A DNA stretch of 64,000 nucleotides. It comes from Paralvinella palmiformis. Its lineage: Eukaryota; Annelida; Polychaeta; Terebellida; Alvinellidae. The notes under the pieces were generated by a model that was not told the DNA's origin, did not search any database, and saw nothing but the letters and a program-made list of their open reading frames with translations. The position numbers and the translations under genes are program-made. Of this stretch, positions 2,785 to 63,194 are shown in pieces (position 1 is the first letter of the stretch; each line of letters begins with the position of its first letter). The DNA lies in NCBI GenBank assembly GCA_025642065.1, contig JAODUP010000859.1, positions 1 to 64,000 of the forward strand, read 5' to 3'.

Positions 2785-5700
2785 TCATGCCTTTCTATTT
2801 GTTGATCCGGAACTAAAACTATTAAGAGAAATGGATCCATCAGGGCATATAACAGAATGTGAATAATGTTGTGTCCGATTGACCACCACCAATATTAAAC
2901 AAAGGGTTAAAATCTCGTTGAAACAAGAAATGACTGCAGCTGGGACATGGGCCCTCAGCCCAAAGCATCCAGCTTGGTGTGTGTATTTTTTGAGTACAAA
3001 ACCACCACCCAAGATAGTACCAGTGGTATGAAGATCAGTACCTTTGTCAGGATCACCATCAACACAGGAGTCCTCAAACTGTAGATTACAATAGAGTTGT
3101 TCAAAGCTACTGCTTCTTTCAAATACTTCATCATCAGAGAGATGGTCATCATCAGGTGACGTTTTCTTCTTGTTTTCATCAAGCTCACCTTCAGTTAAAC
3201 ACATCTGTCCAGGCAACATCTGTATGGTTTTTGCTGAATCCTCATCTTCACGAAAAGATGTCAGTTTAGATGAAGAAGCCTGTTCTTCATCACTTTGATC
3301 ATGTTGCTTTTTTGACTCATCATTCTCATGAGGAGACAGATGCTCAACTTCCACCTGCTGCTGTAATCTCTGAACTTTGCTGTCTGTTTCATCATCGAGC
3401 ACTGATGATGCTGTTCTTTTTGATGTTGTACCAGTAACATCAACTGAGACCAGATGTTGATGCTCTTTGACCTCATCTGTTGTCATTTCAAAACATCCCT
3501 TTGACTCACTATGTCCAGATCCAGTTTGAGTTATTTCCAGATAATCAGCGATGGCCTTCACCAAATGATCACGCGAGTTATCCAGTTGTTCTCCCCTGGC
3601 TGCTATTTTCTGGTATTCAACAGACTGGTCCTGTTCCAGTCCACTCTGACAGCTTTCACAGGCTGGTTCCAATTTGTTGTTGTTCTGGATTAGATACGTC
3701 TTAGTATCACACTGAATGTCAAACTCCTTCAGGAAACTCATCACAGGACTAATGCCAGCATCTTTGGGTACAGGGTCAACATTGGCCACCTGACATGAGG
3801 ACAAACTGCATTCTTCATTCATCATTCCCTGCCACCACACCTCCTCCTGTTTTGGCGTACTGGTGCCGTGAGCTGATGGCATACTCGTGCCATGAGCTGA
3901 TGACGAGTGAGAAACAGGATCTTTGCTAAATAATTCCTTCAGATCACTGACTGAGGCAATTGGTGATCTGTCCACGAACTCTGACCTTCCTGGCTTCTCC
4001 CTCATCTCTATGATGTTGTCTGATGTCTCAATTTCAGTGTCTTCCACTATGATTATTGGAGCCTTCATGAAGTTTGTGTCTGGATGCTGCTGAACAGCTT
4101 CACTTTTCCCAGATTTGTTGGATACTCTCTCCACAACATCACTCCTGATCCTAGAAGCTCCCTGTTGAGGAACAATAAGTTGTTTATCAAGCTGGGTGGG
4201 ATCAGAAATTGGTTCCATTTCTCTGTCATAGGACATGCTCAAAATGATTTCTTCCATTTCTGCATCGCTGATGAATCGTCTATTGCTCTCAATAAGACTA
4301 TCCAGATCATCATCATTGTCATCCATATCAGTTTTACTATTTGCAGAAGATTCCAACTGACCTTGGCTCTCATTATGGAAACTTAAATTCTGGCTCTCAA
4401 CTAAAGCATCCAGATCCTGATTATCACAAAAATCACCCAGCTTCTGTATGCCAAATGAATTATGAGAAGTTTTATTTATATAAGAGGCATCATCACTGTT
4501 GTAGTTCTCAGCTATTCTAGATGATGTATCCTCTGTGTCAGCCTCTACCAAGTCAAGCTTCTTGTGTTTTTCTAGATTTTTATTCACTGATTCCTCAGCG
4601 GCCACTTCTGATGACATCACCTCATCTTTAGCTGATTCGGTCTCGGAATGTTCTGATGTCTGACTGATATTTTGTTCTGTCAGCGTCTTCGGCAGGTTAC
4701 TGTTTGAGTGATATGGCCTGTAAGGCATGGTTGCTTCCAGTTTCAGAGCAGCTGAGTTCGAATGGATAGGAACAGGGTCAGTTTCGATCACCTCAGTCAC
4801 CGTTATTTTGTCCTTTAGATCCGGCCCACTGAGATTCATCATCACATCCAGATCTAAGGAATCGATATCTGATGATGATTCATCCTTAACCGTTCCATTC
4901 TCATCATCACTGTCAACAGGTTCTGTCTTCTCACTGATCACACTCAAAGAATCGGCATCATCTTCTGAAGCTGGTACCAGTCGACTGTAGTGTCCTTTTT
5001 TAATCATTTCCAGCACCTCACGGATATAGTCAAGCTGTTCAGGTGAATACACATCCTTTTCTTCAAACCACTGTTCCAGTGCCTTGGGTCCAAACTGCAG
5101 ATCCGATTCCATGCCACACATTGCTTCATGGGTGCGTTCACCCGAAAATCCAGCAGCCAACAAGTTGTTCTTCAATATCTGGATTGCACGTTCTCGTTCT
5201 TCATCTCTGTTGTTGTGCTCCTGTTTGACATCATGCTGCTGATGCTGCAGGAGATGACCACCAGATGACACATCATGATCCCATTCCATCTGGTCAGATG
5301 ACGATGATGCTTCTTTATCATCTCGGTCACTGTCATCTTTTGCCCAAAAATCACCCTCTCCATGCTCCGTGTTTTGCCAACTCCACTCATGATGTTCTTG
5401 ACCCTTCACATCAGCCACGTGCTCATCTTCTCGTCTCTCCCCATAACCATCATTAGTGGTCTCTTTTTCCAAGTGGCCATCATTCAGGGATGTAAGATAA
5501 ACAGGTAACGATGGCTTCAGGGGATCCACAGACTTGTCATTATCATGATCTGGTGTGGACAGTGAAGACCGCATTTCCACATCCTGTTCCTCCACCACTG
5601 AACACTGAGTTCCAGAAATGGTTGACAGCCCACCACCATTACCGCTAGCCACAACTCCACCTTTACCATACCTCGCCAGGAGAGTATTAACCTTGTCCTG

Positions 5701-5948
5701 GATAGGATCAGGAGAAGGGATTGTATGAGGAGATAGTCCATCACCGGGGACAGGATTCTTACACTTTTTGTTCTCTAATGAAGCCTCTGCATCGACGTCA
5801 TCTAGATCTGAATTTGAGCTGCTGGATGACATAGGCAAAGAGATCGATTCCTCGGCAAGAAATTTCCGATCCCAACTTGGTTCTGATTGGTCGATGTTCA
5901 GATCGTGTGATTTTTGTTTGGGCTGAGTTTCATCAAGGAACTGATGAT
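2785..5948 (-). CDS. SYTL: Synaptotagmin-like protein, long acidic linker exon
   Basis: The exon begins after a CTCCCCTCAG acceptor at phase 1, reading DHQFLDETQPKQKSHDLNID, and stays open for more than 1,050 codons to a TGA at 2785-2787. It is acidic and Ser-rich, with a more structured-looking stretch (NLLAAGFSGERTHEAMCGME, then ALEQWFEEKDVYSPEQLDYI). Acidic LDxL-type motifs recur (DLDALVES, DLDSLIES, DIDSLDLDV), and SAHGTS is duplicated in tandem near 3870-3905. No catalytic or C2 domain is present. The last part (about 2785-3000) is hydrophobic and may be read-through of a splice site; an AAAG/GTACTG donor near 3040 is one candidate. Very long linkers are known in bitesize, whereas vertebrate Slp proteins are much shorter. 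The exon body is confident; its true 3' end is not. Confidence 0.78.
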
Positions 5949-11596: not shown

Positions 11597-12718
11597 CACC
11601 AGTGGGAGTAGTTGATCTATTTTCCAAGCCAGCATGTCTGTCGTCAGGTGAAGGGGTCCTGGATCCATCCTTACGGTTAGCTCGTCGCCTAATTCTGGGA
11701 TCCTTATAAGAAATGCTCTCGGAGTCGGTGGAGCTGGCACTGAACTCACGGCGAGGCGAATCTTTTGGGTATACTGCATTCACTGCATTTCTGTTGGTTG
11801 GTGAGGGTCCGGGACTACACTTCTGGTTCGACTGTGATGGGTGTGGACTACGTCTCTGTGGACTGTTACCACTACGAGGACTGTCCTGGTATGGTCTGAG
11901 TCTATTTGGGCTATCTCTATAACCATCATCTCTCTTGGTATGTTCTTCGCGTGAACTTTGTGGACTAGCTCTGTGTGAACCACTTCTTGAGGAACTATCT
12001 CGGTATGTGCTACTTTTGACCACGTTCTCACCAGAGGGACTACTTCTGTAGTCTTTTGGCGGGTTATTTCGGTATCCTTCGTTATATATTGGAGTTGAGC
12101 AAGCATCCTGTGAACGACTACTTCCTAGATCACTCGATCCAGAAAAACCCTGATGATCAGGAGACAGTGAGCCATTGTAATTTCGAGCAGAGGTGGTGTA
12201 GTGGTCCTCCTCTTGGTCCCATGAGCTGATGGTGCCATACGCCATCGTATCAACGCTGGCAACCTCCATATCAGAAATGCCACCAACATCGGTGACAACG
12301 GTGATACGACCATCACTGGACACCAGTGAACTACGCAGAGAGCTGCGCAATGAATCAGTGTGAGTGAACATTGATTCATTGCGACTGGAGAACTGGGGAG
12401 AGCTCGGAAAGCTGTCCGAGTCTGAATCGGAGTCACGATATCGGTTGCTAGTCACTCGCTTCACCTCAACATGATGCTGTCCAATGACAGGTTGTTCAGG
12501 ATCCCGACGTCGTGACTTGATCAGTTCCATTAGTAGCTGTTTGTCTTCCTCCTCTGGGAATGCCACACGTTCCAATCGTTTGGTAGGTGGTAACCCCTCT
12601 GTACTTTGTGTGTCACTGTTTTCACCATCTGCAGGTGACTTGCTAGGTGTGTTTGGGTTATTGTTATACAAGGCACGTTTGACTTCCTCTGTTAAGCTGT
12701 TACCTGCTAGAACAGTTC
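11597..12718 (-). CDS. SYTL: Synaptotagmin-like protein, basic Ser/Arg/Pro-rich linker exon
   Basis: A 1,122-nt exon (373 whole codons plus split codons), open throughout. It begins TVLAGNSLTEEVKRALYNNN and passes through a charged segment with EEEDKQLLMELIKSRRRDPE, then a Ser/Asp run (DSDSDSDSFPSSP). The last third is strongly basic and repeats YRDS/SP modules (for example YRDSSSRSGSHRASP, YRDSPNRLRP, SPQRRSPHPS), ending DGSRTPSPDDRH and TTPTGG. No folded domain is recognised; long disordered linkers between the Rab-binding module and C2A are usual in Slp and bitesize proteins. The many SP/TP sites suggest proline-directed phosphorylation, which is inference. The acceptor is TTTCCAG and the donor is GTAGGTTTG, phase 1 at both ends. 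It is shared by the long and predicted short isoforms. Confidence 0.85.
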
Positions 12719-14189
12719 CTGGAAACATAAATTTTTTCAATTAATGCAAGGCCTAAGGAACATACAAGACAAAAGTAGTGCACTGAAGTCATTCATTGTG
12801 TGCGTGCGTGCATGCGTGCGTGTTTGTGTGCGTATATACACTAATGAGACATTACAAGTCTCAGTATGAAAACTTTTATGTTAGAATAATACCCTGATGA
12901 ATCACCCAGAAGTTGTATTCATAATTTGCTATTCTTGCTGCCAGTGCCTTTTCACATATGTTAAAATACACACAAATTATCAAACAGTTACTCTTGCTGT
13001 CTGATATTTTATTTTAATCGCACTAATGTTGTATAATATTTAAGTTAATTAAATAACATTAAACTTATAACTGTGTGCATACATGCATGAATATGAGTTC
13101 CCCCCCTCTCTCTCTCTCTCTCTGTGTGGATTTGTACATATGTCTGTGTGCATATAAACACCTATGCACAAATTTAATATATATTTAGAGCATTACAGGG
13201 CAGCCCTTGAGGGCCATGAAGCAACAATGTACAAGTCAAAGATCAAATCCAAATAGCATTCCTTCATATATATTAAACAAAAAGCAATTACTTTTATTTA
13301 AAGAACCTCTAGTGTGTTAATTAATTTGCTAAAATTGCCATACTTATTCCGGAACAAAATAAACTAATTAATCACCACGGCAACTCGTGTTGGCATAACC
13401 ATCCAAATAGACCAAAATAATTACATCGGCAGCCAAGATTTCTAAAATCAACGGCTGGCAAAAAATCTCATGAATCACATGACCCACAACTAAAATAAGA
13501 TAATGATGAGAAACACCTCTTACTGGATCTGACGTCAAGGGGATGTGAATCAATTTGTATCAGAATTCAGTTACATGACATTGGACGTCCCCATCTCGTG
13601 GACCGAGTCTCTGAGTCCACAGCTCTAGGCCACACAGTGGCAAATCAAACCAAACACGATAACTGTCACAAGAGACACTTCAGCTGATGGGATTTCTCGC
13701 TTTTGATTGGCAAAGCCAATAATACGCTGCCATTAAATCAGCACAGTTGACGCCAGCATCCAGCATTAATTCTGTCCTAGTCCAGGTAGGACATCAATCT
13801 GGAATCAATGCTCCAGAACAACACGAGGCCATCGATCTTTGTCCTCTTATGAATAAATGTAATATTCTGACACTCCTAGGAGAATAACTGGAAATGACCG
13901 ATTCTGCGGCATAGAATCATAAATATGATCTCTGTCGAGGGAAATACCGCAATCAACACGTCAACACTACAACAAACAGTTCGGCCTTCCCTACATTAAC
14001 AAATAGAGTGAGAAAACGGACATCTTAAATATGGGATCTATACAGATTTGGGCAGATTATGTCAGGTTTGTGGCAAGTTAGTAACTCTTTAACAATGGCT
14101 CTGGTCAGCTTGATGTATGATGCAAAATCTTGCAATTAATCATCAACACTGATGATTTAACCGATTCTGCCACAATACCTGAATATCTG

Positions 14190-16154
14190 AATATTATAAT
14201 AAAAAGATCAAAGCATCCAAGGGAAATCAAAGGACTGTTTTCAGTGTTGTGAATAAAGTATTATATAAAAGTCAAACTGTCCTCCCAAATAATATCAACT
14301 CAGATAGAAATATGGCCCATTGTTTTAATAACTTCTTCTGTCCAAAAATATTAAATATACATAGTGGGTTCCAGTCCAGCACCTTATCACAGGGTAAGCC
14401 ATTGGTAGAAGAGTCCTGCATATCCATGATGAATATATTTGAGCCTTTTACAGAGACTGATATCAGACAGTTGCTGAAAAAGTCATCTAATGCGTTCTGT
14501 GCAGTTGACCCTATGCCTACATGGCTTGTGAAAGATTGTCTGGATGTTCTGATAAACCCAATTACAAATATAGTTAATAAATCATTATCTCTGGGTGTTT
14601 TCCCAAGATCCATGAAAGCTGCCCTTGTAAAACCATTAATAAAAAACCACACTATGGACTGTAATATTCTAAACAATTACAGACCTGTTTCAAATCTTAC
14701 ATTTTTATCTAAAGTTATAGAAAAGGCAGTTGCTTTTCATTTAAACAAATATTTAATCAATAATAACCTTAATGAACCACTACAGTCTGCCTATAAAAGT
14801 GGTCACAGCACTGAAACAGCCTTGGTTCGAGTGAAAAATGATATATGATGTCAATTGATCAAGGTAAGCCAGTAATACTTGTTCTTCTGGACCTGTCTGC
14901 TGCATTTGATACAGTTGACCATAATGTACTTTTCTCTAGGTTAAAAGACATGTTTGGTCTGTCAGGTAGAGTACTTAAATGGTTTAGATCCTATCTGGAA
15001 CAAAGCTCCCAGAGATGTCTGTTCTTGGTATTTTATCTGACATTCAGTTTTTGTTATCTGGTGTACCACAGGGTTCAGTTCTTGGTCCTCTGGTTTTCAC
15101 AATGTATACCCGTCCTCTTGGGATCATTGCGCAGCGATATGGGATTAAATATCACTTGTATGCTGATGACACACAGCTGTATATATCACTGGATCCTGAC
15201 AATGAGTTAAATTTCTCCTCTTCCTTGAAGAATTTAGAACATTGTATTGCCGATATTCGGCTATGGATGACTCAAAACCTTCTAAAACTAAATGATAATA
15301 AAACAAATATTTTATATTTGGCATCACCACATTGTGTTAAATCCCTAAAGACACCAGCATTATAGATGGGTGCATCTTCGATTACCCCTAATGGGTCAGT
15401 AAAAAATCTAGGGGTTATTTTTGACCAATGTATTAACATGCATGAACATGTCACATCAGTATGCCGAGCTGCCTACTACCATCTTAAGAACATCCACTGT
15501 TTAAAAGCATTCTTGACACAAGAATGACTTGTAACTATAGTTCATGTCTTTGTTACATCTCGTATAGACTATTGTAACTCCCTGTTATATGGCATATCTG
15601 ATTATGACATTAATCGCCTTCAGCGAATTCAGAATAGTGCAGCTCGCATTGTAACAAATACTAGAAAATATGATCATATCACCCCAATTCTTCAAAAAAC
15701 TACACTGGCTACCTGTTAGACAGCGTATCCATTTTAAGATTCTGTTAATAACTTATAAATTTATTAATGATATGGCGCCAGAATACCTGTGTGAACTGGT
15801 GTCCATTAGAAAGTTATCCCGAAAACTCAGGTCATCCAGTCAGATACTATTGCAGGTGCCAGTGTCATATGGTGATTGTGGGTTTAGTGTTGCAACCCCC
15901 ACTTTGTGGAATAAGTTGCCGGCAAATATTAGAAATGCGTCGTCTCTTGGAAATTTTAAGTCTATTCTAAAAACACACCTATTTAAGGTCGCTTTCACAG
16001 ATAAATAATTATTATCTTTTAAATCATTACAGGGTTTTTACCAACTTTATTTGGGGTATTATTATATTACATATTATTTGTACAGCGCCTTTGGATGGCT
16101 CCTGCTAGTAAGGGCACTTTATTAAATATACATTATCATTATTATTATTATTAA
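14190..16154 (+). mobile_element. 5'-truncated jockey-superfamily LINE (CR1/L2/Rex-like) with decayed reverse transcriptase
   Basis: The element carries the 3' two-thirds of a non-LTR reverse transcriptase, antisense to the host gene. Recognisable pieces in order are [58 protein letters not shown] (catalytic YADD) and the C-terminal LHWLPVRQRIHFKIL with APEYLCEL. Frame changes occur near 14846, 15010 and 15693, with stops at 15363 (TAG) and 15525 (TGA), so it is inactive. The 3' end has a short conserved tail (GCGCCTTTGGATGGCTCC) followed by ATT repeats, which is typical of CR1/L2-like elements. The endonuclease portion is missing, consistent with 5' truncation on insertion. Confidence 0.88.
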
Positions 16155-23474: not shown

Positions 23475-24938
23475 ATGTGTGTGTCTGACTGTGTGCATGG
23501 GTGCGTGCGTATGCGTGAGAGAGAAATACTGTGTACAATATAGTACAGCGTTCCGGGGAGACAGATACTATCAGCTAGTTAGGCCCACCAATAACATTAC
23601 CTTCCATAAGGCCATAACCCAACAACAACAACAACAACATTACTTAGCAGACGCTATGGACGAGGTAAGTCACCTGTTATTTAGCCATTTTCTCCGGCAG
23701 CAGCCCAACACGCACATAACAGAGCACATCAAAGAAAACCATCTCTAATGAGGACCTGGAAGCTTCCTCCTCAGCGCTTCTCCTAATACTTCCTGAATCC
23801 GTCACCTGACTCATTTCCTGACCAGATCTCCCTCCCCCCTCACCCGACACACTCTACACCCTCATGCTGCACATCCCACTCTATCTCATGTGAACTGGCA
23901 GCAGACTGGAGACATCTAAAAGCTTAAGAGTTTATCTGACCCTTAAAATAGACCTTTATTATAGGCATAATATTGTATATGGTAAATGAACTGAGATATT
24001 TTATGTTGATGTTGTTGGATGTTTCAATAAACAAGATGTTAAAAAAACGGACAGTCTTCAGCGATGCAACAATTTTATTATAATGTCAGGTGTTATACAA
24101 TTGGTTCAACAACCATTTTCAAGGTAGAATAGCGGGATGCCTAGAAATTTCTTCACTTTCCATCCTCATGTGAGTTCCAGTCACCATTTATTAGCACATA
24201 ATGCACAAATAATCCATTAGTCAACTATTCCTTTTATCACCAGATCAACCAAATTGTGCACATGCAGATGACCAGCAGTGAGTCGTCGGCATGACGAACC
24301 CCCCAGATCCCACAATATTCTACCCCACTACTGATAGTATTCTAACCCATTAAGCAATCATCCCAACCTGAAGATTAAAAGATAAACTTTATGTCACTCA
24401 TTTATTATAATATCATTATGTTATATGTACCATTAATCCTCAGTGAACTAGTAGTCTGACTTGTGGTCACATTATCACTCACACCCCCTAAGGGCCTGAG
24501 AACACATTGACCAGTCATATACATGGTATGCTACCTGTTTATAACAGTTAGGACTGACATCTGGAAGCTGAACATGACATCAACTCCTCTCATCTTGACG
24601 TAAGCTTTAAGATTCAAATGCCCACTGAATTCCACATAAAGAGGTTACCGAGTACAGCTAATAACCATAAGCCAAATGAAAACACCCCGCTTCCTCAATG
24701 ATAATTCTTTTTCTCAGACTTATAGATAACTATTAGAAAGATGATGATGATGCCAATGATAATGCAAAATAATTAATATATTCATTATCATACTTGTTAT
24801 TATAATTACCATCATTAGTTACTATTTCTTGGTATAATTAATTTTATAATTATTATTATGTTACCATAATAATTATTTGTCATGTTACAGTTATTACCAT
24901 CACACTTCTTTTTTTACTGATGGGTTACAGGTAGACAG

Positions 24939-25670
24939 CCTTTAATGACTCCTCTGATCTGTGACTGAGGGGGATTACAGGTAGACAGTTATTACCATCA
25001 CACTGACTGAGGGGGATTACAGGTAGACAGCCTTTAATGACTCCTCTGATCTGTGACTGAGGGGGATTACAGGTAGACAGCCTTTAATGACTCCTCTGAT
25101 CTCTGAAGGGGATTACAGGTAGACAGCCTTTAATGACTCCTCTGATCACTGAAGGGAATTACAGTTAGACAGCCTTTAGTGACTCCTCTGATCTCTGAAG
25201 GGGATTACAGGTAGACAGTCTTTAATGACTCTTCAGATCACTGAGAGGGGTTACAGGTAGACAGCCTTTAATGACTCCTCTGATCTGTGACTGAGGGGGA
25301 TTACAGGTAGACAACCTTTAATGACTCCTCGGATCATTGAGGGGGATCACATGTAGACAGCCTTTAGTGACTCCTCTGATCTGTGACTGAGGGGGTCGCA
25401 GGCAGATATCCTTTAATGACTCATCGGATCACTGAGGGGGTTACATGTAGACAGCCTTTAATGACTCCTCTGATCTGTGACTGAGGGGGATTACAGGTAG
25501 ACAGCCTTTAATGACTCCTCGGATCATTGAGGGGGATCACATGTAGACAGCCTTTAATGACTCCTCGGATCACTAAGGGGGGTCACAGCTAGATAGCCTT
25601 TAATGACTCATCGGATCACTGAGGGGGATCACTGGTAGACAGCTTTTAATGACTCCTCGACAGGATACTT
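24939..25670. repeat. Minisatellite, ~46-52-bp unit, about 15 copies
   Basis: Each unit runs TTACAGGTAGACAGCC, TTTAATGACTCCTC and a variable join (TGATCTGTGACTGAGGGGG or GGATCATTGAGGGGG). Unit types are mixed. One unit near 24987-25010 contains AGTTATTACCATCACAC, which also occurs just before the array at 24888, so flanking sequence was pulled into the array. It is intronic and non-coding. Confidence 0.93.
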
Positions 25671-26887: not shown

Positions 26888-26932
<45 letters not shown>

Positions 26933-28694: not shown

Positions 28695-29738
28695 CTACAT
28701 TTTGCTAGAAACCAAGGAACCAGCTAGATTTTTGTGTTTAGAATAAGCTGTGATAATTCTATATTCATAATCATTCAACACTTCTTTCTGTTGGAGAATT
28801 TTATCATGTTTTTTAATTATTCTTGCTGCTATGTTAGCCGTTTTTGAAAATGGTACCACAAATGGGACAACGTCCTCATTTTGTATAGGTTTTATAACAT
28901 CTTCATATCTTTTCTTATTAAGACCTCCCGGTTCTAATGTACCTAGGGTATCTATCCAAAATGTTTCCCGAATTACATCATAATCTTCTAGAGATGGTTC
29001 GGGCAAGTCTTTATTTATCTGTGTATGTTCTAGAAGATGCGTGAATAACGCAGAAGACATCACTTTTGAATTAATCGCAAATCTGTGGCCATTCATTCTA
29101 ACACGAAGTTCGCCATTACTCTCGCCTACATACTGTTTAGAGCAACGTAAACATTCACTAATATATATTATGTTAGATGAGCTACAGTTTAAATTGCCTA
29201 TTATTCCATGTGTTTTATTGGTAACTGTACTTGTGATATTGTGACAAGAACACAATATCTCGCATGATCTACATCTGCTAATCCCACATGGTTTTGAACA
29301 CCACTGACTATTTGTAGGATTAGTTGGATTAATACGACGTTGTTCTATTTGTAGTTCACGGACAGTTTTACTTTTAATATGGCGTAGCCATCTTTTTGAA
29401 TAATTCCTTTTGCATAATGAATGAGACAATATCTGCCATGCTTCATCAAAATCTGTAATTTTTGAACAAATCCTAAAAAAACGTGAGATCTGAGACTTCA
29501 GGATTCCTTGAAAGGTATGTTTAGGGTGAAAGGAATCCTTATGCAAGAGTTGATGAGTGTCTGTCGGTTTAAAGAAGACCTTTGTTAATAATCCATTTTC
29601 ATTTTCTGGATCTTTAAATATAGTTGTATCCAAGAAATCAATTTTCTGCTTATTTAATGTAGCTTTAAATCTAATCAGTGGTTCGTGATTATTTAAACTA
29701 TCCAAAAATCCATAAAAAGCCTTTTTTCCGTGGGCCAC
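28695..29738 (-). CDS. Penelope-like element, RT C-terminus and GIY-YIG-like region (partial)
   Basis: An open stretch of about 347 codons with no internal stop. It starts just after the YLDD catalytic motif, which lies in a different frame immediately upstream. It has KKAFYGFLDSLNNHEPLIRF and DFLDTTIFKD, a typical post-catalytic RT segment, then a thumb-like region. A Cys-rich patch follows (CSKPCGISRCRSCEILCSC). Then comes a GIY-YIG-like core at about 29172-29095 with YISECLRCSKQYVGES and VRMNGHRF. The product would act in target-primed reverse transcription of the element. Separated from the rest of the RT by frameshifts, it is a fragment rather than a host gene. Confidence 0.75.
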   Translation of the reverse strand: MAHGKKAFYGFLDSLNNHEPLIRFKATLNKQKIDFLDTTIFKDPENENGLLTKVFFKPTDTHQLLHKDSFHPKHTFQGILKSQISRFFRICSKITDFDEAWQILSHSLCKRNYSKRWLRHIKSKTVRELQIEQRRINPTNPTNSQWCSKPCGISRCRSCEILCSCHNITSTVTNKTHGIIGNLNCSSSNIIYISECLRCSKQYVGESNGELRVRMNGHRFAINSKVMSSALFTHLLEHTQINKDLPEPSLEDYDVIRETFWIDTLGTLEPGGLNKKRYEDVIKPIQNEDVVPFVVPFSKTANIAARIIKKHDKILQQKEVLNDYEYRIITAYSKHKNLAGSLVSSKM

Positions 29739-29813
29739 ACAATAAATACGTCATCTAAATAACGATAGTATGTATGTGGTTTTAAAGCTGCTTTATATAA
29801 GGCCTCCTCAAAT

Positions 29814-30467
29814 TTAGCCATAATGAGGAGCCCAATCCCGGCCCATTGAAGTGCCAGTGGCCTGAATATACCATTGCCTGTTAAAGAGAAAATCGTTATT
29901 TTTTAATGATAATTCAAGGAGTTGCATTATACCGTCATATAAGGGACCTCGAAATTGAAGTGCTTCACTCACTGCATTAAGCCCTTTAGCATGGTCAATA
30001 TTTGTATACATGCTCTCAACATCTAATGTTATAAGCAAGCATCCATCAGGTATGACTAGCTTTGCAATTTTATCTACAAAATCGTAGGTACTTTTTATAT
30101 AAGAAGGGTGCTTCATTGCAGGTGGTTTAAGAATACTGTCGATGAAACTTGCAACATTTTTAGATTCACTATTACAGTCAGATACTATAGGTCTACCAGG
30201 TGGCATCTTATCTGGAAAAGTCCAACTGTTAAATGCCTTATGAATTTTAGGAAGCATATAGAATCGCCGAGGCCTTGGATTAATTGGCGGTAATAAAAAT
30301 TGCAATTGTTTATCTGTGATAACACCAGAATTTCTTAGCCTATTTAATATTTCTGCAACCTTTACTGATGTTTGGGGAAATAAAGGAGTTTTAATTTTTG
30401 TGTAGTGGTGAGTATTATTTAGTTGTCGATAACCTTCAGCTAAATAATACTTTTTATCCATTATCAC
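29814..30467 (-). CDS. Penelope-like element, reverse transcriptase core (partial)
   Basis: About 217 codons encode the fingers and palm of a Penelope-type reverse transcriptase. It opens in the nucleotide-binding region with a lysine/acid motif just upstream in another frame (ADKGSATVIMDK). It continues through PPINPRPRRFYMLPKIHK, GRPIVSDCNSESKNVASFID and LLITLDVESMYTNIDHAKG, where the first catalytic aspartates lie. It stops at WAPHYG because of a one-base frame change near 29830. Translation resumes in the next frame with EEALYKAALKPHTYYRYLDD. The fragment is decayed but only modestly. Confidence 0.78.
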   Translation of the reverse strand: MIMDKKYYLAEGYRQLNNTHHYTKIKTPLFPQTSVKVAEILNRLRNSGVITDKQLQFLLPPINPRPRRFYMLPKIHKAFNSWTFPDKMPPGRPIVSDCNSESKNVASFIDSILKPPAMKHPSYIKSTYDFVDKIAKLVIPDGCLLITLDVESMYTNIDHAKGLNAVSEALQFRGPLYDGIMQLLELSLKNNDFLFNRQWYIQATGTSMGRDWAPHYG

Positions 30468-32745
30468 TGTTGCTGAACCTTTGTCTGCTTTTTAAATACT
30501 AAACTCTTATTTTTGCGGATATTTCTGAGGGCTAATGATTCCGACTGGTCTATATTATTTTTTTCCTTCAGAATGGTTAAGCTTTTTATTTCTGATGTGA
30601 AGTTTGAAATACACTGAAGAAGATCTGGGTCTATTACTTTATCAGTTGGGATCCAGTTGGATTTCGACACAAACGTCTTACTGTTTTTAATATAGTTGTT
30701 ACGGCAACATCTAAAAAATATATAATTTTTAATCTTCTACCCAAGTTAAAAACTGCATTTGTGATTGCTGTTTTATCAATATCAGGGGTAGGGACAAATG
30801 ACAAACCTTTGTTTATTAAATTAATCTTCTTTTCCGAAAGCATATAAGAAGAAAGATTAATAATATTACGATTATTGTTAGAACAGGGGTCAAATTGACC
30901 TTCTGGTTTATTTAGTTTAAATAAATTAACCAGTGACGTAACATAGCATTGGCCGTGTCTTCACTCCATTCATTATTATGAATATCACTGGAAGAAGTCT
31001 GGAAGACCTTCTCATCTAATTTGGGTATAATGTTGACTTCTTTATATTGAGTCATTGATTTATTTATCCTATTTAAATTTGAATGTTCTGCTTGTGGAAG
31101 CAGAGAGGAATAATTAATTTCCATTAAATATATTTTAATTGTTGTGTGTGTGTGGGGGGGAGAGGTGTATCTGTTTGTTGCATCCCCTCCAGATTCTTCC
31201 AGGTGATTTACATAAATCTCAGAACGGATTCATTTCGTCACGAAAAATTGGAGAACTGGAGAAAATCAGAACTCCCCATCACTGAATGACATAAATGAAG
31301 TCATCTCTCTTTCTTATCAATTAAACAAGCTGATCATACTTTCTTAATCGTAAAATAAACTAATATGACATCTATCAATCACAGTATGCTACAAAACAAA
31401 TAATAACCATGCCACATTTTATGTACTACTAATTGCTCATGAAACGTAATAATTCTTCATACGTGACTACCAAAACATGGTGCAATCATGATCACTCTGA
31501 AAGGCGCTTTACTGCCCTTTTGGAGCACCCAGTTTAATATTGCCTACAAATGGTCATGTGCAAATATTAGCTTAAAGGGACAACAAAAGGAGAGCAGCCA
31601 ATTGACACCTACTATTTATGGTTGTGCAATTAAGATAATGGAACGAAATTAATATTTACCAAAATATTACAAGTTATTAAAGGATCAATCAAGTGCGTAG
31701 ACAATGTATCCAGATACTGAATTCCAGTAGGTGATTTTCGTGTACCAGTTAACTGTCTGGTCCAAATTGTCAGATGCTGACATTTTTTCTCTCCACAATT
31801 TGTAGGTAAGTATTAACTGGATAGGGAATCGTTATGAAGAAAGCATATGTCCCAATGATGTGGCCATAAACCTCAATTAGATAGTAACCATTAAATGAAT
31901 TATTTAATCAACTCCAGCAGAAGAAGATATTCATCAGGATCATCCCATAAGCTGATAACATTATTACTATGGCAACCCAGACAGGGATAGTTTTTAACTG
32001 GAAATAGATCAGGGAGACAGCTTTGGATATGATGATAAATTAATGAGAGCAGCCTTAATTATTTACTATCAGTTTGAGGATAGGATGTGGATGGTATCAT
32101 TGGGGGGGGGGGGGCTTAATTAATATGAGTTAAGGCCAAACCTACTGCCAGTCCCGATCAGGTGGATGATAATGGTGCATCTAAGGTGCCTACAGAAACA
32201 GAGGCAAGCGTGCATCCATACCTGTATGGATAGTTGCACGCGCGCGCATGCACACACGCATGCACGCACACTGTAAATATAAAGGCATGCACCAAATGTT
32301 GATAAATCACCTTCACAGACAGACAGACACGCACTGATAAACAAACAGACATTTTCTCTGGAACAAGACCTCACAGCTGATATCCGGCCATCATTGTACA
32401 CATTAAGATCGGGTGATCATCAACAGCTCTGACTTACTCCTTTTATACTTGTTAATATGACAACTGAAGTCCCCTAGCTACAGACTAGTTAGCTACTGTA
32501 TGTCACAGTTCTATTATTTATAACTAATACAGCTTCCTGCCTTCTACAATAACAACATAATACTGTACACCGAGGCCTATATATGACGCCATTTCGTAAA
32601 GGGGGGGGCTGGGCAAGAACAGATATCTTTATACCTATCTACCATAAGATGGCTAATTATGGTTTATATAACACTGGAAATAACATTTTGGTATCTAATT
32701 ATTTATAGTGCCAGCAATATGAATTGGGTATGCCCTTAAGAGATC

Positions 32746-37748: not shown

Positions 37749-38690
37749 GTTGGAATATGCCCCACTGTCAAATGGACTATCCAGTGTATAGCATCCCCAA
37801 GCACCGAACTTCCTTCATACACTGTCCATTACTTAAACTTAAGGGGTGATTCAATGGCCTTAAGTGGTCAGAGCACTGTACTTGAAACCTTCAGGCTGCA
37901 ATCACAGACAGTAGCCCCTCAAACAAACATCTTAGGTGTGACTGACTCAAATCAACACATCACTAATACACTAGATTCTTAAAGTAGCGGTAATATACTT
38001 AAACCAGATAATAACCCAGAACATAACATAAACAGCTATGTGATCTTACACGCTACCAACTGGACTATTTGATTGTTCAACCTAAACTAATCATTTATGT
38101 CAGTGAGTATTTTGTATAGCCTAAACAATGCTCACAATTTAGATATATGGTTCAATGATGGTTCTCCAATGAAACATCTCATATATACAGGTATGAGCTG
38201 GTTTCAAACCCTGACCTAGAATGAGTGAATGAGTAAAGTTTGTTTCACCACCAATGAAGGTGCAGCAGTTATATTAATGATATCTGGCCGAAGACTGTCT
38301 CCCAGTGAATTTAAGTTCCCACAAATGCATGGTTCCTAAGTTTAATTCAGACTCTGACATTTCTAATTAGTTAGGTCTTCCATAATTAAATATAGGTACA
38401 CATGCTTGCATGCATTAATGTACATATGCACCCACTTGAATGCTACATAAATCCCAAAACAAATAGCATGATGGTCAAACATTAATCTCATAACAAGACA
38501 CAAACCTTATAACAAGATATAGTAACACAATGGACAAATCAAGAGACACCTCTTATATCCAAACCTGAAAGTGTTACTGAAAACAAAGACTTATCTCACT
38601 ACGCCAGCGGCATAACAGATAACAAACAATCAGAATGAAAACAGCTATGACAGAGAGACATTTAATATAGTCTCATTGTAGGTCTCATAC

Positions 38691-38751
38691 CTGCTTTTGT
38701 CACCTCAATCACCTCCTCAACAAGAACCCGGAATCGTTCGAGCATGGCCAT
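38691..38751 (-). CDS. SYTL: Candidate alternative first coding exon of the synaptotagmin-like gene
   Basis: A short exon with its own start inside the large third intron. It reads MAMLERFRVLVEEVIEVTKA followed by one base, then a GTATGAG donor. The ATG is preceded in frame by TGA six bases upstream, so the reading cannot extend further 5'. The phase-1 end joins the basic linker exon at 12718 to give TKA-G-TVLAGNSLTEEVK, the same junction used by the long transcript from 42709. The peptide looks like a short amphipathic helix. A TATA motif and CCAAT lie upstream. A product starting here would lack the Rab-binding helices and zinc finger but keep the linker and whatever lies downstream. Sequence logic is strong, but no transcript evidence is available here. 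Confidence 0.68.
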
Positions 38752-38799
38752 CTTTCAAGCGGGCTATTCCATAAGAAACAAGGAAATCTGCGACAGAGT

Positions 38800-38911
38800 G
38801 TTTTTATAAAATCGTAAACTACACCGAAGCATCACACGGTCTCGTTGTGCCAACGACGTCCCTCAACGAACGTTCGGCATACATCCCTCGTTCGTAGATG
38901 GCACAATTGGT
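38800..38911 (-). promoter_or_regulatory. Putative internal promoter for the short isoform
   Basis: On the minus strand a TATAAAA lies at 38808-38802, about 50 bases before the ATG at 38751. This places a start site near 38775 and leaves a short leader. A CCAAT motif lies near 38906-38910, and a palindromic GACGTC (ATF/CRE-like core) lies near 38856-38861. Local CpG density is higher than in the surrounding AT-rich intron, continuing to about 39540. The arrangement fits a TATA-type core promoter, but start-site data are lacking. Confidence 0.5.
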
Positions 38912-40070
38912 GAGGACATGATGATGATGACGAGCGAGTGGCATTCAAGACGACTCTACCATCTCGGTGTGCTCGCCGTCACCATTACACCCACCAAGTG
39001 TCTGTTGGTAGTCGAGGTATGGTGATAATGATGATGATGCTGCTGCTGCTAAAACGGGATGATGTGACACTCTCAGTGAACACCCACGAACAGCCGATGA
39101 TATTGGCCAACTCATGAATAATACAGAGCTCCGTGGGGGGGGGGGAAGGCAGACAGCCCCCAGTCTCGGCAGCCAGTCAGAGGACCAAATGGGCCGGGCA
39201 TCACACAACACACCCACAGAGTTACCAAATAGACGAATGGCGGGACTTTGCAGAACTGGGAAGCGACTCCCCCACATATACATACACAGAAGCATGCACC
39301 CAACACCCTTTTGTAACTGTCTGCGAGGATGAATCTCACTTCGGCCAGCCACGGCTAGCAGTCAAAGCTGACCGTATTAGTGATGGGATTATCTTCTGAG
39401 ATAACCGACTAGTAAAGCAATTAATGGTAAATCAATTGGACCGCCATGAGCCTCGGTTCTAAGACAAGAAGAACCAATTAGGCGGAACCACAACAAGGAC
39501 CGGTCATTGTCTCCGATCAGCGGATGTAGAGGAGGTCGGCTGAGCTTAAGAGTGTCGTTTTAGATTATGAATCATAATAATCAATCTATGTCAACAGAGA
39601 CGTGATGTGTACAAGCTGATAGATATACAAAATACGGCCAGACAGACGGGTAGACACAGACAAACTGTCACATAGACAAATATACGGACAGGTAAACAGA
39701 TAGGCAGGCTGAATGATGTAAACGGTAGAGAAACATCATTATGACTGCATTTCCTGTCAAACAAATGCCCTATGCCGGATGCGCGCGCACGCACACAAGA
39801 AAAAAAACACGAAAAACCGGACACACCATTTTCCTGCCAAGATCATCCTAACCTCATCCTGTGCGGGAACAATTACTGACACAGAAAGGCAATGATCCAC
39901 GTCAGAGGTCACAGGTGAACATATTTGGCAGCTTATGATCCCTGCTGAGGACCACTGACGTCATTGATACCACCAGCGGCTTGGGCACTCTAAGTCCAAA
40001 ATTAGTTAGCCTATAACATGCTCAGGATGGCAGTACCTGATCCGTGGATGTCTAAATTCTCCCCCCCCCC

Positions 40071-42708: not shown

Positions 42709-42848
42709 CATCTTCCGATGCACGACCAGGTCTTCGAAATGACGCTCGTACTATTTCTGAGCCTGAAATCACACGGTTCGTCTTTTTTGAACGTTTGCTC
42801 TTACGAAATTTTGAATAGAACCAGTGGTTTGTCATAGCTTCCAATTCC
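42709..42848 (-). CDS. SYTL: Synaptotagmin-like protein, second Rab-binding segment exon
   Basis: This 140-nt exon finishes the Rab-binding module. The two carried bases AT plus the first G make Met, then ELEAMTNHWFYSKFRK follows, and later SGSEIVRASFRRPG. The family landmarks are a WFY aromatic cluster after the zinc finger, a basic stretch, and a GSEIIRxSLR-like motif; all are present in order. The basic run KSKRSKK lies between them. The acceptor is TTACAG and the donor is GTAAGTGTG, with phase 2 in and phase 1 out. The next coding exon in the long transcript lies about 30 kb away at 12718, and the phase matches exactly. The alternative first exon at 38751-38691 sits in that intron. Confidence 0.88.
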
Positions 42849-44105: not shown

Positions 44106-44318
44106 ATCTGTCTGAAGCAAAGTATACATAGCCACGTGTTTTTATCCTTGTGTTGACGACATTTCTCACAAACTCGATGCTGACAGTTTGGACACATTGC
44201 TCCCGTGTTGAAGAACCACCCAAATGGTTCCCGACACCTAGCACACGTTTTGGTAGCATCCTGACCTTCTCTTATAACTCCCTTTAGTCGTAACTGTTTC
44301 ACTTCACTCTTCAGGTTC
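44106..44318 (-). CDS. SYTL: Synaptotagmin-like protein, zinc-finger exon
   Basis: This 213-nt exon carries the FYVE-like zinc finger found between the two Rab-contacting helices in Slp3/4/5, rabphilin and bitesize. Eight cysteines are visible in four pairs: CARC, CPNC, CEKC and CILC, the normal zinc-binding set for two ions. It opens with NLKSEVKQLRLKG, completing the helix of the preceding exon, and ends CILCFRQ plus two bases. The acceptor is a TTTCAG and the donor is GTAAGATA. Both edges are phase 2, so the exon is length-neutral for the reading frame. Slp1 and Slp2 of vertebrates lack the finger, so this gene belongs with the finger-bearing members. Rabphilin and Noc2 also have such a finger, but the flanking helices and the later TGS-type motif fit Slp better. 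Confidence 0.9.
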
Positions 44319-45906: not shown

Positions 45907-46016
45907 CTAATTCTTTCCTGTTCCTTTTTGCGAAGCTCATCATCCCGTCTAAGGACTTGAAGTATCTGGTCGCGCTCTGTCTCTGTCAGCTGTTTTAGGT
46001 CAATATCAGACAGCAT
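45907..46016 (-). CDS. SYTL: Synaptotagmin-like protein, first coding exon (Rab-binding helix)
   Basis: This exon encodes the start of a Slp homology domain, the N-terminal Rab27-type effector helix of synaptotagmin-like proteins, which link secretory vesicles to the plasma membrane. The 36 codons begin MLSDIDLKQLTETERDQILQ and continue with RRDDELRKKEQERIR. The family pattern is an acidic start, then LxxxERDxIL, then RDEELRK and a KRIR helix, and all parts are present. The ATG has an in-frame TAG 15 nt upstream, which supports this start unless an acceptor intervenes. The exon ends in a GTCAGT donor at phase 2, and joining to the zinc-finger exon gives ERIR-NLKSEVKQ, the expected continuous helix. 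Rab27 binding is known for the family and is inferred here. Any untranslated exon further upstream was not located. Confidence 0.88.
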
Positions 46017-51100: not shown

Positions 51101-52689
51101 ACTATGTGTAATGTGTCATATAGTATCGATCAACTATCTGTCTGATAACACACACGCATGCGCGCGCGCACGCACGCACGCACACACACCACTACTATAA
51201 TAACATCTATCCACGCCCGTAACATCCCACAGCAAACTGATATCTAGCCAAATATTTTCTTTCTAAAATGAAATTTGTTGTATTTCTCAACAAAAAAATC
51301 CATAAATATTCCTAATGAAACTTCCACTAAAATAACAGATGTACAACTGAATACAATTATAAGGATGGTTAATTTAGACAGACCAGTCAAAATAACCAAA
51401 ACTGTCAAACATACATTTGTCGATTAATTTTTGATTGATTGATTTTGTTTCATGATGGGATAGCAAACGAAAGTGCAAGCACCTATTTCTAGTGTCATTG
51501 ATGAATTATCATTATGACCCCCCCCAAAAAAAACCCACACCAAGTAATTTATAAAAAACAACTATTTTTCTCCTGGAACAAGAGATCCTAAAGTGAACAG
51601 AATTATTGTGGAAGTACAGAAAAGACCGTAGATGATTAAGCTCAACACTGTCATTTAACTAATTAGGATCTAGGACTTGTTTGATGGGAGAATTTGACTC
51701 TCCATGAGGCAGTCACTACCAGCGCATTTAAACTCTATAACACACACACACACACACACACACAACATATATATCGTCAAACCCGACAACAACAAACATT
51801 ACCTAACTGACCGCCAGAATCCTACCGGATGTCAATCAGATGCAGAGTATTATATATATATGCCACTAATTTGCCAATTCTCTCTAACAATCATCAGATT
51901 GACATGGTCTGTTCATAAATATGTCTAATGGTAAGAAGAATCTGACACAATCGTGATAACAATAAGTGAATAACAAAAATATTTTATTTATTTAGAGTTG
52001 ATGGTAGGCAGGTATTATTGTAGGTAAGGATTATAGTAGACAATGAAGATGATATGATGATACTTTAAAGCTGAACAATGACATGATACAATTAACGAGA
52101 GAGAGAGAGAGAGAGGGGGAAGGAAAAAGTGTGAGAGAGATAGAAAGTGGAGGGAGAGAAAGAGAACACAGAAATATTACGCTAGTTTTCTAAATTCATC
52201 AGTGGCTTTCCCCCAGACAGGGTCTACCTTTAATGCTCTTCACCGTAAAACACTTCATAAACTGACAGGCGATTTACAGATCTAAACGCAAAGTTCCTAT
52301 AATATGTTGTCAGCCAATTCAAGTCAAATATTACCGAAATGCTCGATTTACACAGTTAACCTCTTCAACAGAGTTCCGCCAATATAACCAAAGTAGATTG
52401 TTTTATATCGTTTTCCTTCCAAAACACAGAAGATTAAAATGAACACTCAAACAGCTGTTAACACAGGACAGTGGGAATACCCGGACAACTGTCTATTACG
52501 TGACTGGATCTTGTTTTATGAACTTCTTCCGCCATCGTTGAGAGGAGAGCAGTTTGGGAAGATTGTGTTGGGTCAAATAGGTCTCAGGCTGATAACCCAT
52601 TCTGTCTGCTTTATAAATGGTCAGTACTGTTTATGACATGTTCTGTAAACGATATGTGAGCTTGAGAGCCAGTCAGCAGTTTGTTAAGA

Positions 52690-52790
52690 ATAGCCTCGGC
52701 GCTATAGTCACACCTGGGACAGTCATGGCCGAGGTAAGAGTACCTGCCTATTGAAACATCCTACTATACTAAGATAGGGATGAATCGGAT
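52690..52790 (-). mobile_element. tRNA-derived SINE, family B, 3' part
   Basis: The 3' region is clear (TAGCCTCGGCGCTATAGTCA, CACCTGGGACAGTCATGGCC). The head is diverged after GATGAATCGGATTCTG. Confidence 0.55.
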
Positions 52791-52886
52791 TCTGCTATCA
52801 GAGCACCGTTTGCACACACACACATGCACGCACGCACACACGCATACACACGAACGAACGAACGCACACATATATACATTTACTAT

Positions 52887-52919
52887 CTAACATAGGCTTT
52901 AGTTAATCTGGCTAAGATG
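52887..52919 (+). repeat. Dispersed 33-bp repeat, copy 2
   Basis: Second copy of the 35298-35330 sequence, placed between two CA/GCAC microsatellite tracts. Confidence 0.7.
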
Positions 52920-53549
52920 CGCACGCACGCACACACACACACACACAGAGAGAGAACAGAGAGAGCTGTATACTAGAAGACTGGAAACATCGTCTTTTCT
53001 GGTGTCAACCACAACAAAAAAAAACATCACAAACAAGAGGTTCGTTTCAGTGACAAAGCAGTGACAACATTAACGACGGCGACAACAACAACGACCAGAT
53101 CAACGACCATCACACAACAAGAGCAGATGGTCTCCGACGACACATGCTAATATTAAAGAAGGAAAACAGAGATAAAACGGCTCTGAAATATAATACAGAC
53201 AGCTGTATTGTGGGGGTAGGTTGAGTGATATAATGGTGCTTATTTCTCTTAATTTCACTGATGATGATATTTATTAATGAATATGATAAAAATAATGATG
53301 TTCAGCATCATTATTATCAGTAGAAGAACCATTCACTTTTATCTATTATATATATATATAAATATTGTATGAATATCACTTAGTTCTAAGAACTCCGGGA
53401 CAAGTAAGATGCAAGTAAAAGTTGGAAACATTAAATGACCTTTTGGGGGTCAATTTTGTCTCACGTACCAAGATGGCGGGACCATTGTTACATGAACACT
53501 AACAACTGTGCCATTCTAGTTTAATGGTTAGTGAAGCAACAAAATTCTA

Positions 53550-61421: not shown

Positions 61422-61737
61422 TTTAAGGCACAGACACGCCAGGCTATATAGACTCCTGAGGACAGAGATGATGACCTGATGTTCTACGTTCTATCATCAC
61501 AACTATCATAACCTCAGTTTAATCAAGTTTCTAACACGTAAACAACAGCTTAAGGTCGGATGGGGAGATACCATATTTAATGTGACTTGATTATAAATGG
61601 AAAACCAGTATTTGTGTGTGAGTGTGCATGTGTGTGTGTGTATTTTACAGACAGTTCCAATAATTATCTGCCTTGTCCCTTACATATAAAACGCTTCTTC
61701 AGCAATACAGTCTGTGTTCCATTGTTTAGCCTTCAGT

Positions 61738-61890
61738 GGCTGGTCACACCTGGGACATTAATCGCTCGGACGGGGCCTGCCATCGGAAACAAACATCACA
61801 AACACCGGTATGAGCTACATTCGAACTCACAACCTAGAGGTTTAAAGCAGCAGCACAGCGCTCTGAATGACTGTGCCATCCGAACGACCT
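61738..61890 (-). mobile_element. tRNA-derived SINE, family B
   Basis: Reverse copy with GGTCACACCTGGGACATTAA, CACAAACACCGGTATGAGCT, ACATTCGAACTCACAACCTA and AGCGCTCTGAATGACTGTGC. It is one of the best preserved members. Confidence 0.78.
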
Positions 61891-63194
61891 GAACATTTCA
61901 AATATTATAACACGTCCCGAGATGAAACATAAAAAAGACCTATCCTACCTAACTACGTCAGTTTCGTGTGTCAATGGTATTATACCATTACGATGGCGGC
62001 TCCTACCTAGACCGTTGCTGACCACGTCCAATGGCAATCAATGATTCAATCGGTTCTTAAACTATTACTAAAGACAAACACCTGCTAGCTAGATAGCCAT
62101 CACAATTAATAGGAATAAGTGCAAGCCGAGCTTAGGACAAGCCAATTATTAACACCCGGAATATGTCTACCTCATTATTGTTCCGGTAAGCCACACACAG
62201 TAGATTAAATCTACAGGTAACCACAAATCTCTAATATTAACAACAACAACGAGAACAACTTACAGTACTGAAGCCGACCTATCCCGTGACTGAATCAAAA
62301 AATGCTTAATTCATTTATAACGTGACGGGGCAACGCCGTTGAGAATTCAGATATTCAGAGTGCAGCCTTTTATTATGGGATGAAACATCCAACAGGAAAA
62401 GGTAATGCTGGGTTTCAAACCCACAGCCTCGGGGTTTCCAGTTTTAATCATTCTACCAAGTTGGTAGTATTAACCAGACGACGGAACATCTATATTATAA
62501 TTAACAGACTTACTTCAAGCAGTATATGCCGATTAAAAATAACGGCAAAACCTGTCACAGCAACCACCTGTTTTGGACATAAAATTAAATATAAACCTCC
62601 AATTTTCTTAGAGTTATGATTATAATGAACAAAATCTACCATACAAATATATCTTTGTTAGTGGACTATGTATGGTAGGTAGTCTGTTCAGATTTAACTG
62701 AGTAAGCTGTCATTAATGTATGGTTAGGATGAGATACATGACACGCGCTCGCACACGCACACACGCAAACGCATTCCAACATAAGTACTTACGCTCTAAC
62801 TTCATCAATCAAGGCCACAATTTATAATCTTATTTCTATCTTATCTAACTGTTAAACCTTATCAGCCATCAAAATACTTGGGCTACTTAAAGATGTATAC
62901 TAACTATCCAGCGGCTTTAAAGCCTCTTGTAGACACCCACCATAACATTACATACAAGTCACTGAATATGAGCTATACCATATAGGCACATATATCCTAA
63001 AATAAGTGTTACCGAAGACACGCATATATATATATATATATGTGTGTGTATGTATGTGTATTGCACTAATATTGTGTTTCTCTTTCTCTCTGTGTGTGTG
63101 TGTGTCCATATTAGCTGTGATACCAAGTTCAACTCTGTGTCTATAGCAATATGATACAGGGTGTTACATGATAATGTACAATGTACCGTTGATA

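Follow-up and report, generated by a model that had tools for sequence, protein, structure and literature searches.

The mammalian Slp (SYTL) family, like the gene analysed here, possesses an N-terminal Slp-homology domain (SHD) and has splice variants, and Fukuda et al. 2001 (BBRC 283:513) are said to have described mouse Slp2 and Slp3 forms without the SHD. Linker variants of the mammalian Slp proteins, as presented in the available part of the source, retain both the SHD and the C2 domains (PMC2329822). In Drosophila, the single gene bitesize (btsz) gives rise to nine splice isoforms, several of which carry an N-terminal Rab-type zinc finger and which vary in the inclusion of a Moesin-binding exon; the word "several" in the available part of that article implies that not all isoforms carry the finger and that zinc-finger-less forms occur in the fly (PMC10153138). 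In the same part, Slac2 is described as being without C2 domains (PMC10153138). Within the literature searched, an internal promoter of an Slp gene was named in no title or abstract opening.

The window, that is the whole stretch of 64,000 nucleotides that was analysed, is animal-type genomic DNA, and its minus strand contains the 5′ portion of a gene in which coding exons 1–3, the first two of them readily recognised, encode a complete SHD (Table 1). Inside the 30-kb intron right behind this module, the original prediction placed an internal TATA promoter and an alternative first exon that would give rise to a synaptotagmin-like isoform without its Rab-binding domain. On balance, it is slightly more likely than not that this stretch holds an internal promoter with a TATA box, followed by a short first coding exon that is used as an alternative start, as proposed.

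Table 1. Features of the gene and of the candidate internal promoter, in window coordinates
Feature	Positions	Strand	Details
First coding exon, long form, SHD first half	45907..46016	-	MLSDIDLKQLTE...QERI; ends phase 2; joined frame open
SHD zinc-finger exon	44106..44318	-	phase 2 to phase 2; acceptor score 8.5; FYVE_2 match
SHD second half exon	42709..42848	-	phase 2 to phase 1; ELEAMTNHWFYSKFRKSKRSK..., ...NHWFYSKF...
CpG-dense stretch, candidate internal promoter	38501..39300	.	CpG counts
CCAAT box, candidate	38906..38910	-	read directly
TATAAAA, candidate TATA box	38802..38808	-	50 bases from ATG
Candidate alternative first coding exon	38691..38751	-	20 codons + one base, phase-1 donor; 61 bases
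Shared exon	11597..12718	-	phase 1 to phase 1; alternative in-frame acceptor gives start 12703
Shared large exon	3189..5948	-	begins in phase 1; strong phase-1 donor at 3188 (score 7.1) tentatively taken as the 3′ end, although the frame continues open as far as 2785

The SHD module and the shared downstream exons

The SHD is 154 residues in length, and its last exon ends in phase 1 ahead of the phase-1 acceptor at 12718. A direct splice from the zinc-finger exon to 12718 was rejected, as the junction reads ATG AAC TGT TCT AGC AGG TAA, and this reading into a stop led to the search that found the exon at 42848–42709, which was absent from the original prediction and had not been picked up by prior motif searches. 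The search covered open stretches of 50–260 bases from 44080 to about 12750 with a phase 2 start and a phase 1 end (acceptor score of at least 3, donor score of at least 1), and of the three stretches that passed, 42848–42709 was the best by far (23.3, compared to −0.4 and −1.3). Once this exon was included, the match to Pfam FYVE_2 (PF02318) rose from 73.7 to 86.3 bits (E = 2.3e-24; cut-off, 27.2 bits) and the match to melanophilin from 54.2 to 62.2 bits. Against solved structures, the SHD matched melanophilin (5e-16), rabphilin (1.1e-13), and the Slp4 zinc finger (3.6e-8), and the product of the first coding exon aligns with the N-termini of melanophilin and rabphilin. This N-terminal domain has helices flanking a zinc finger of the FYVE_2 type and, in its second half, a W-F type motif, a defining feature of SHD/FYVE_2 Rab-effector proteins; here NHWFYSKF aligns with LEWYYQHV of melanophilin and GAWFFKGF of rabphilin, tryptophan on tryptophan. 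The predicted gene product is an SHD-containing Rab-effector-type trafficking protein. Upstream of the first coding exon, two further CpG-dense stretches (52300–53300 and 61500–62500) are candidate main promoters.

Behind the 30-kb intron, the exon at 12718–11597 and the one starting at 5948 meet in phase 1. A weak score of 1.3 was obtained for the 12718 acceptor (compared to 7.5 at 5948 and 8.5 at 44318, using approximate weights), a stop closes the frame directly upstream of it, and an in-frame AG 15 bases beyond it would also keep the frame (exon start 12703). Use of one or the other acceptor would add or drop five residues in either isoform. The joined frames are free of stops, with 1524 residues in the long form and 1390 in the alternative form, both read to an arbitrary end at 2961, and extra small exons may lie within the introns of the gene. 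Slp/bitesize proteins are characterised by tandem C-terminal C2 domains. There was no Pfam match in the frames of the two large exons, nor any C2 match in 10 of the 16 open frames listed left of 2960, and the gene, its C-terminus included, apparently continues past the edge of the window. As the search of these frames turned up no C2 domain, we infer a Slp/bitesize rather than a Slac2 or rabphilin identity from the one feature that favours it, the very long middle region; the gene is probably the synaptotagmin-like/bitesize gene of this animal.

Elements of the candidate first exon

The sequence observation behind the original prediction was confirmed on the minus strand for every element that it listed. 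The ATG at 38751–38749 is directly preceded by TGA AAG, placing an in-frame stop two codons upstream, and has a strong Kozak context (A at −3, G at +4). The 20 codons encode MAMLERFRVLVEEVIEVTKA and are followed by a single G at 38691 and then by GTATGA, a donor in the top 0.54% of the 4289 minus-strand GT sites when scored with approximate weights. The claimed fit of this phase-1 donor to the 12718 acceptor holds, as the junction codon is G|GA (Gly), identical to the Gly codon formed from the last SHD exon, and the predicted junction peptide is MAMLERFRVLVEEVIEVTKA joined to GTVLAGNSLTEE or NSLTEE. Both the TATAAAA, said to lie about 50 bases upstream, and the CCAAT further up are present, with an additional CCAAT at 39106–39102 on the same strand. 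From the usual spacing of a TATA box, we take the start site to be near 38778. A mini-frame, ATG GAA TAG, occurs at 38772, between the TATA and the start codon and 21 bases before the ATG at 38751.

Given its phase-1 donor, the phase-1 acceptor at 12718, and its position in the intron upstream of that acceptor, the candidate exon could replace the whole SHD with 20 residues. Because of the in-frame TGA, the frame that begins at 38751 cannot extend further upstream. Both of the other frames contain stops across the exon, which makes it unusable as an ordinary coding exon behind either phase-2 or phase-1 SHD donors. Its use as a regular internal exon following the SHD was therefore rejected, the sole AG between the TGA and the ATG being one that needs a phase-0 donor.

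CpG composition and the extent of chance

The raised CpG of the original prediction was also evident. With 32 CpG, the interval 38701–39300 ranks first in CpG count among the 600-base intervals of the window (step, 100 bases; mean, 10), and CpG observed/expected was 0.81–0.94 in the three intervals starting at 38501–38701 (0.94 at 38501–39100; mean, 0.47). The CpG-rich stretch reaches about 39900 and so exceeds the proposed promoter, an extent which, together with the weak codon signal of the 20 codons, is consistent with an internal start that is real and serves a non-coding RNA, an unrelated transcript, or a 5′ leader spliced elsewhere, the 20 codons being incidental; the in-frame phase fit to the 12718 exon and the strong Kozak context argue against such a transcript, which we regard as improbable. 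The three longer frames scored within 38945–39396 were without coding-like bias, among which the 138-codon minus-strand frame at 38945–39361 was rejected as an exon (codon score, −0.11).

How far chance explains the pattern was explored using 100 simulated introns (second-order Markov), in which the unit sought was an in-frame upstream stop, an ATG, a phase-1 donor with a score of at least 4.6, and TATAAA. The pattern was present in 15 of the 100 introns, rising to 24 with TATA[AT]A, and with a donor cut of 3.0 it was present in 35 (TATAAA) and 56 (TATA[AT]A). In the window itself, the opposite strand shows the same pattern once, at 14845. The ATG/donor/TATA pattern is by itself not significant, and with 15 of 100 simulated introns containing it, the list of elements in the original prediction is weak when taken alone. 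These frequencies speak for a reading in which the ATG, donor, and TATA are a chance match in a CpG-rich intronic enhancer or an old repeat, with no transcript start, a possibility that we take seriously without favouring it and that also accords with the presence of other CpG-dense stretches in the window. The region 38300–39399, however, occurs just once in the window, as blastn gave the self-hit only, and the CpG-dense position strengthens the candidate exon beyond the bare pattern.

Within the 30-kb intron, there are 23 phase-1 ATG-to-donor units (donor score of at least 3, nested ATGs counted), and both ATGs of this exon outrank all the others in CpG. Among the 12 of these units that were listed, a TATA was found only at the two ATGs of this exon and a strong Kozak context only at 38751. 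A count across the whole window, on both strands, in any phase, with a donor score of at least 3.0 and no upstream stop required, yielded 183 units (112 minus, 71 plus). Four of the 183 combined at least 18 CpG per 600 bases with TATA[AT]A, namely the two ATGs of this exon and the plus-strand units at 26926 and 62625, and the addition of a strong Kozak context left 38751 as the single unit. A purely chance match has to account for this coincidence of the top CpG count, TATA, Kozak, donor, and fitting phase (1 of 183), though the thresholds were set after the exon was known, and figures of this type serve to rank the exon, not as probabilities. Among positions sampled in CpG-rich places, TATA[AT]A was found at that distance for 39 of 291 on the minus strand and 20 of 288 on the plus strand, so that the TATA adds roughly a tenfold factor.

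Codon usage, peptide helix, and related sequences

The codon usage of the candidate exon is ambiguous and does not decide between the readings. Of 9255 GC-matched open windows outside the exons, 10.5% attained its score of 0.12 per codon, placing it in about the top tenth, a value that also accords with a chance match, and 7.8% of 6868 unmatched intron windows did so; the score was lower than that of 89% of windows in the accepted exons, which had also served to train it. The special 20-residue helix of the original prediction was not borne out, as the hydrophobic moment of the peptide is not unusual (reached by 21% of 5000 shuffles), and amphipathicity was rejected as evidence for the peptide.

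The protein collection was searched with a method that needs exact shared words and admits only sequences of 0.55–1.75 times the query length. For the alternative N-terminus (residues 1–110 of the joined 1388-residue query), none of 173 word-sharing candidates had E ≤ 1, and the SHD control (residues 1–150 of the joined 909-residue query) was equally empty, with none of 156 word-sharing candidates at E ≤ 1. As the control was empty despite the matches of the SHD to mammalian solved structures, the empty N-terminus search is not evidence of absence. The alternative exon had 100 pattern matches in prokaryote contigs, none of which was confirmed, as expected, and two sliding clamps matched to the first 43 residues among solved structures (E = 0.44 and 0.62) were rejected as chance. 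There was no Rfam match at the gathering score and no tRNA match.

Several other features occur within the 30-kb intron. A non-LTR-type retroelement remnant lies in several frames at 14183–16008 on the plus strand, and in the one piece of it that was scanned (14186–14845), the match to reverse transcriptase stayed below the cut-off (E = 1.2e-5). A second remnant, which looks Penelope-like, lies at 28695–30960 on the minus strand; two pieces of it were scanned, and one of them (29817–30491) has a weak reverse transcriptase match, also below the cut-off (E = 0.0087). A tandem array at 24925–25658 consists of 15.7 copies of a 46-base unit with a higher-order period of 188.

The predicted isoform and comparison with known systems

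If the internal promoter and first exon are used as proposed, transcription would begin near 38778 and translation at 38751, 38691 would be spliced to 12718 (or 12703), and the product would start with 20 residues of its own where the long form has the 154-residue Rab-binding SHD, with the remainder kept. Proteins of the Slp/bitesize type characteristically bind GTP-loaded Rab27 (or Rab3/Rab8). A form without the SHD would be expected to keep the downstream functions and would not be recruitable through that domain by Rab27/Rab3-type GTPases. We infer the promoter activity, splicing, protein, and function of this candidate isoform; judged from sequence, it is a good prediction, if an unproven one, and ordinary in kind. 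The idea of an isoform without Rab binding stood in part: the complete SHD, the matching phase 1, and an exon with promoter-like composition in the intron behind the module all speak for it, whereas the special helix gained no support. A more far-reaching proposal is that an invertebrate gene of the Slp/bitesize type uses an internal promoter dedicated to this purpose, and not exon skipping, to switch between a form recruited by Rab and a Rab-blind one with its own conserved N-terminal helix; this is tentative and rather unlikely.

Were the exon used, this animal could make the protein with or without the Rab-binding part and regulate that part separately, as is suggested by the isoforms of fly bitesize, and one promoter with one 61-base exon would offer a clean handle for separating vesicle-tethering from cortical roles. 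Even then, an SHD-less isoform would not be a new principle, and the idea is less new given the zinc-finger-less forms implied for bitesize. Melanophilin/Slac2 and rabphilin/Noc2 share the same SHD/FYVE_2 module, with melanophilin and rabphilin being the two best solved-structure matches by sequence; the C-terminal parts of these proteins differ, and the gene here is read only to the window edge. In the available text on bitesize, the word "promoter" occurs 0 times (PMC10153138). The linker variants of mammalian Slp proteins, in the part of the source available, retain the SHD (PMC2329822), whereas here a separate start would remove it. The candidate resembles bitesize, in which, as would be the case here, a single gene has forms with and, by implication of the available text, without a Rab-type zinc finger (PMC10153138).
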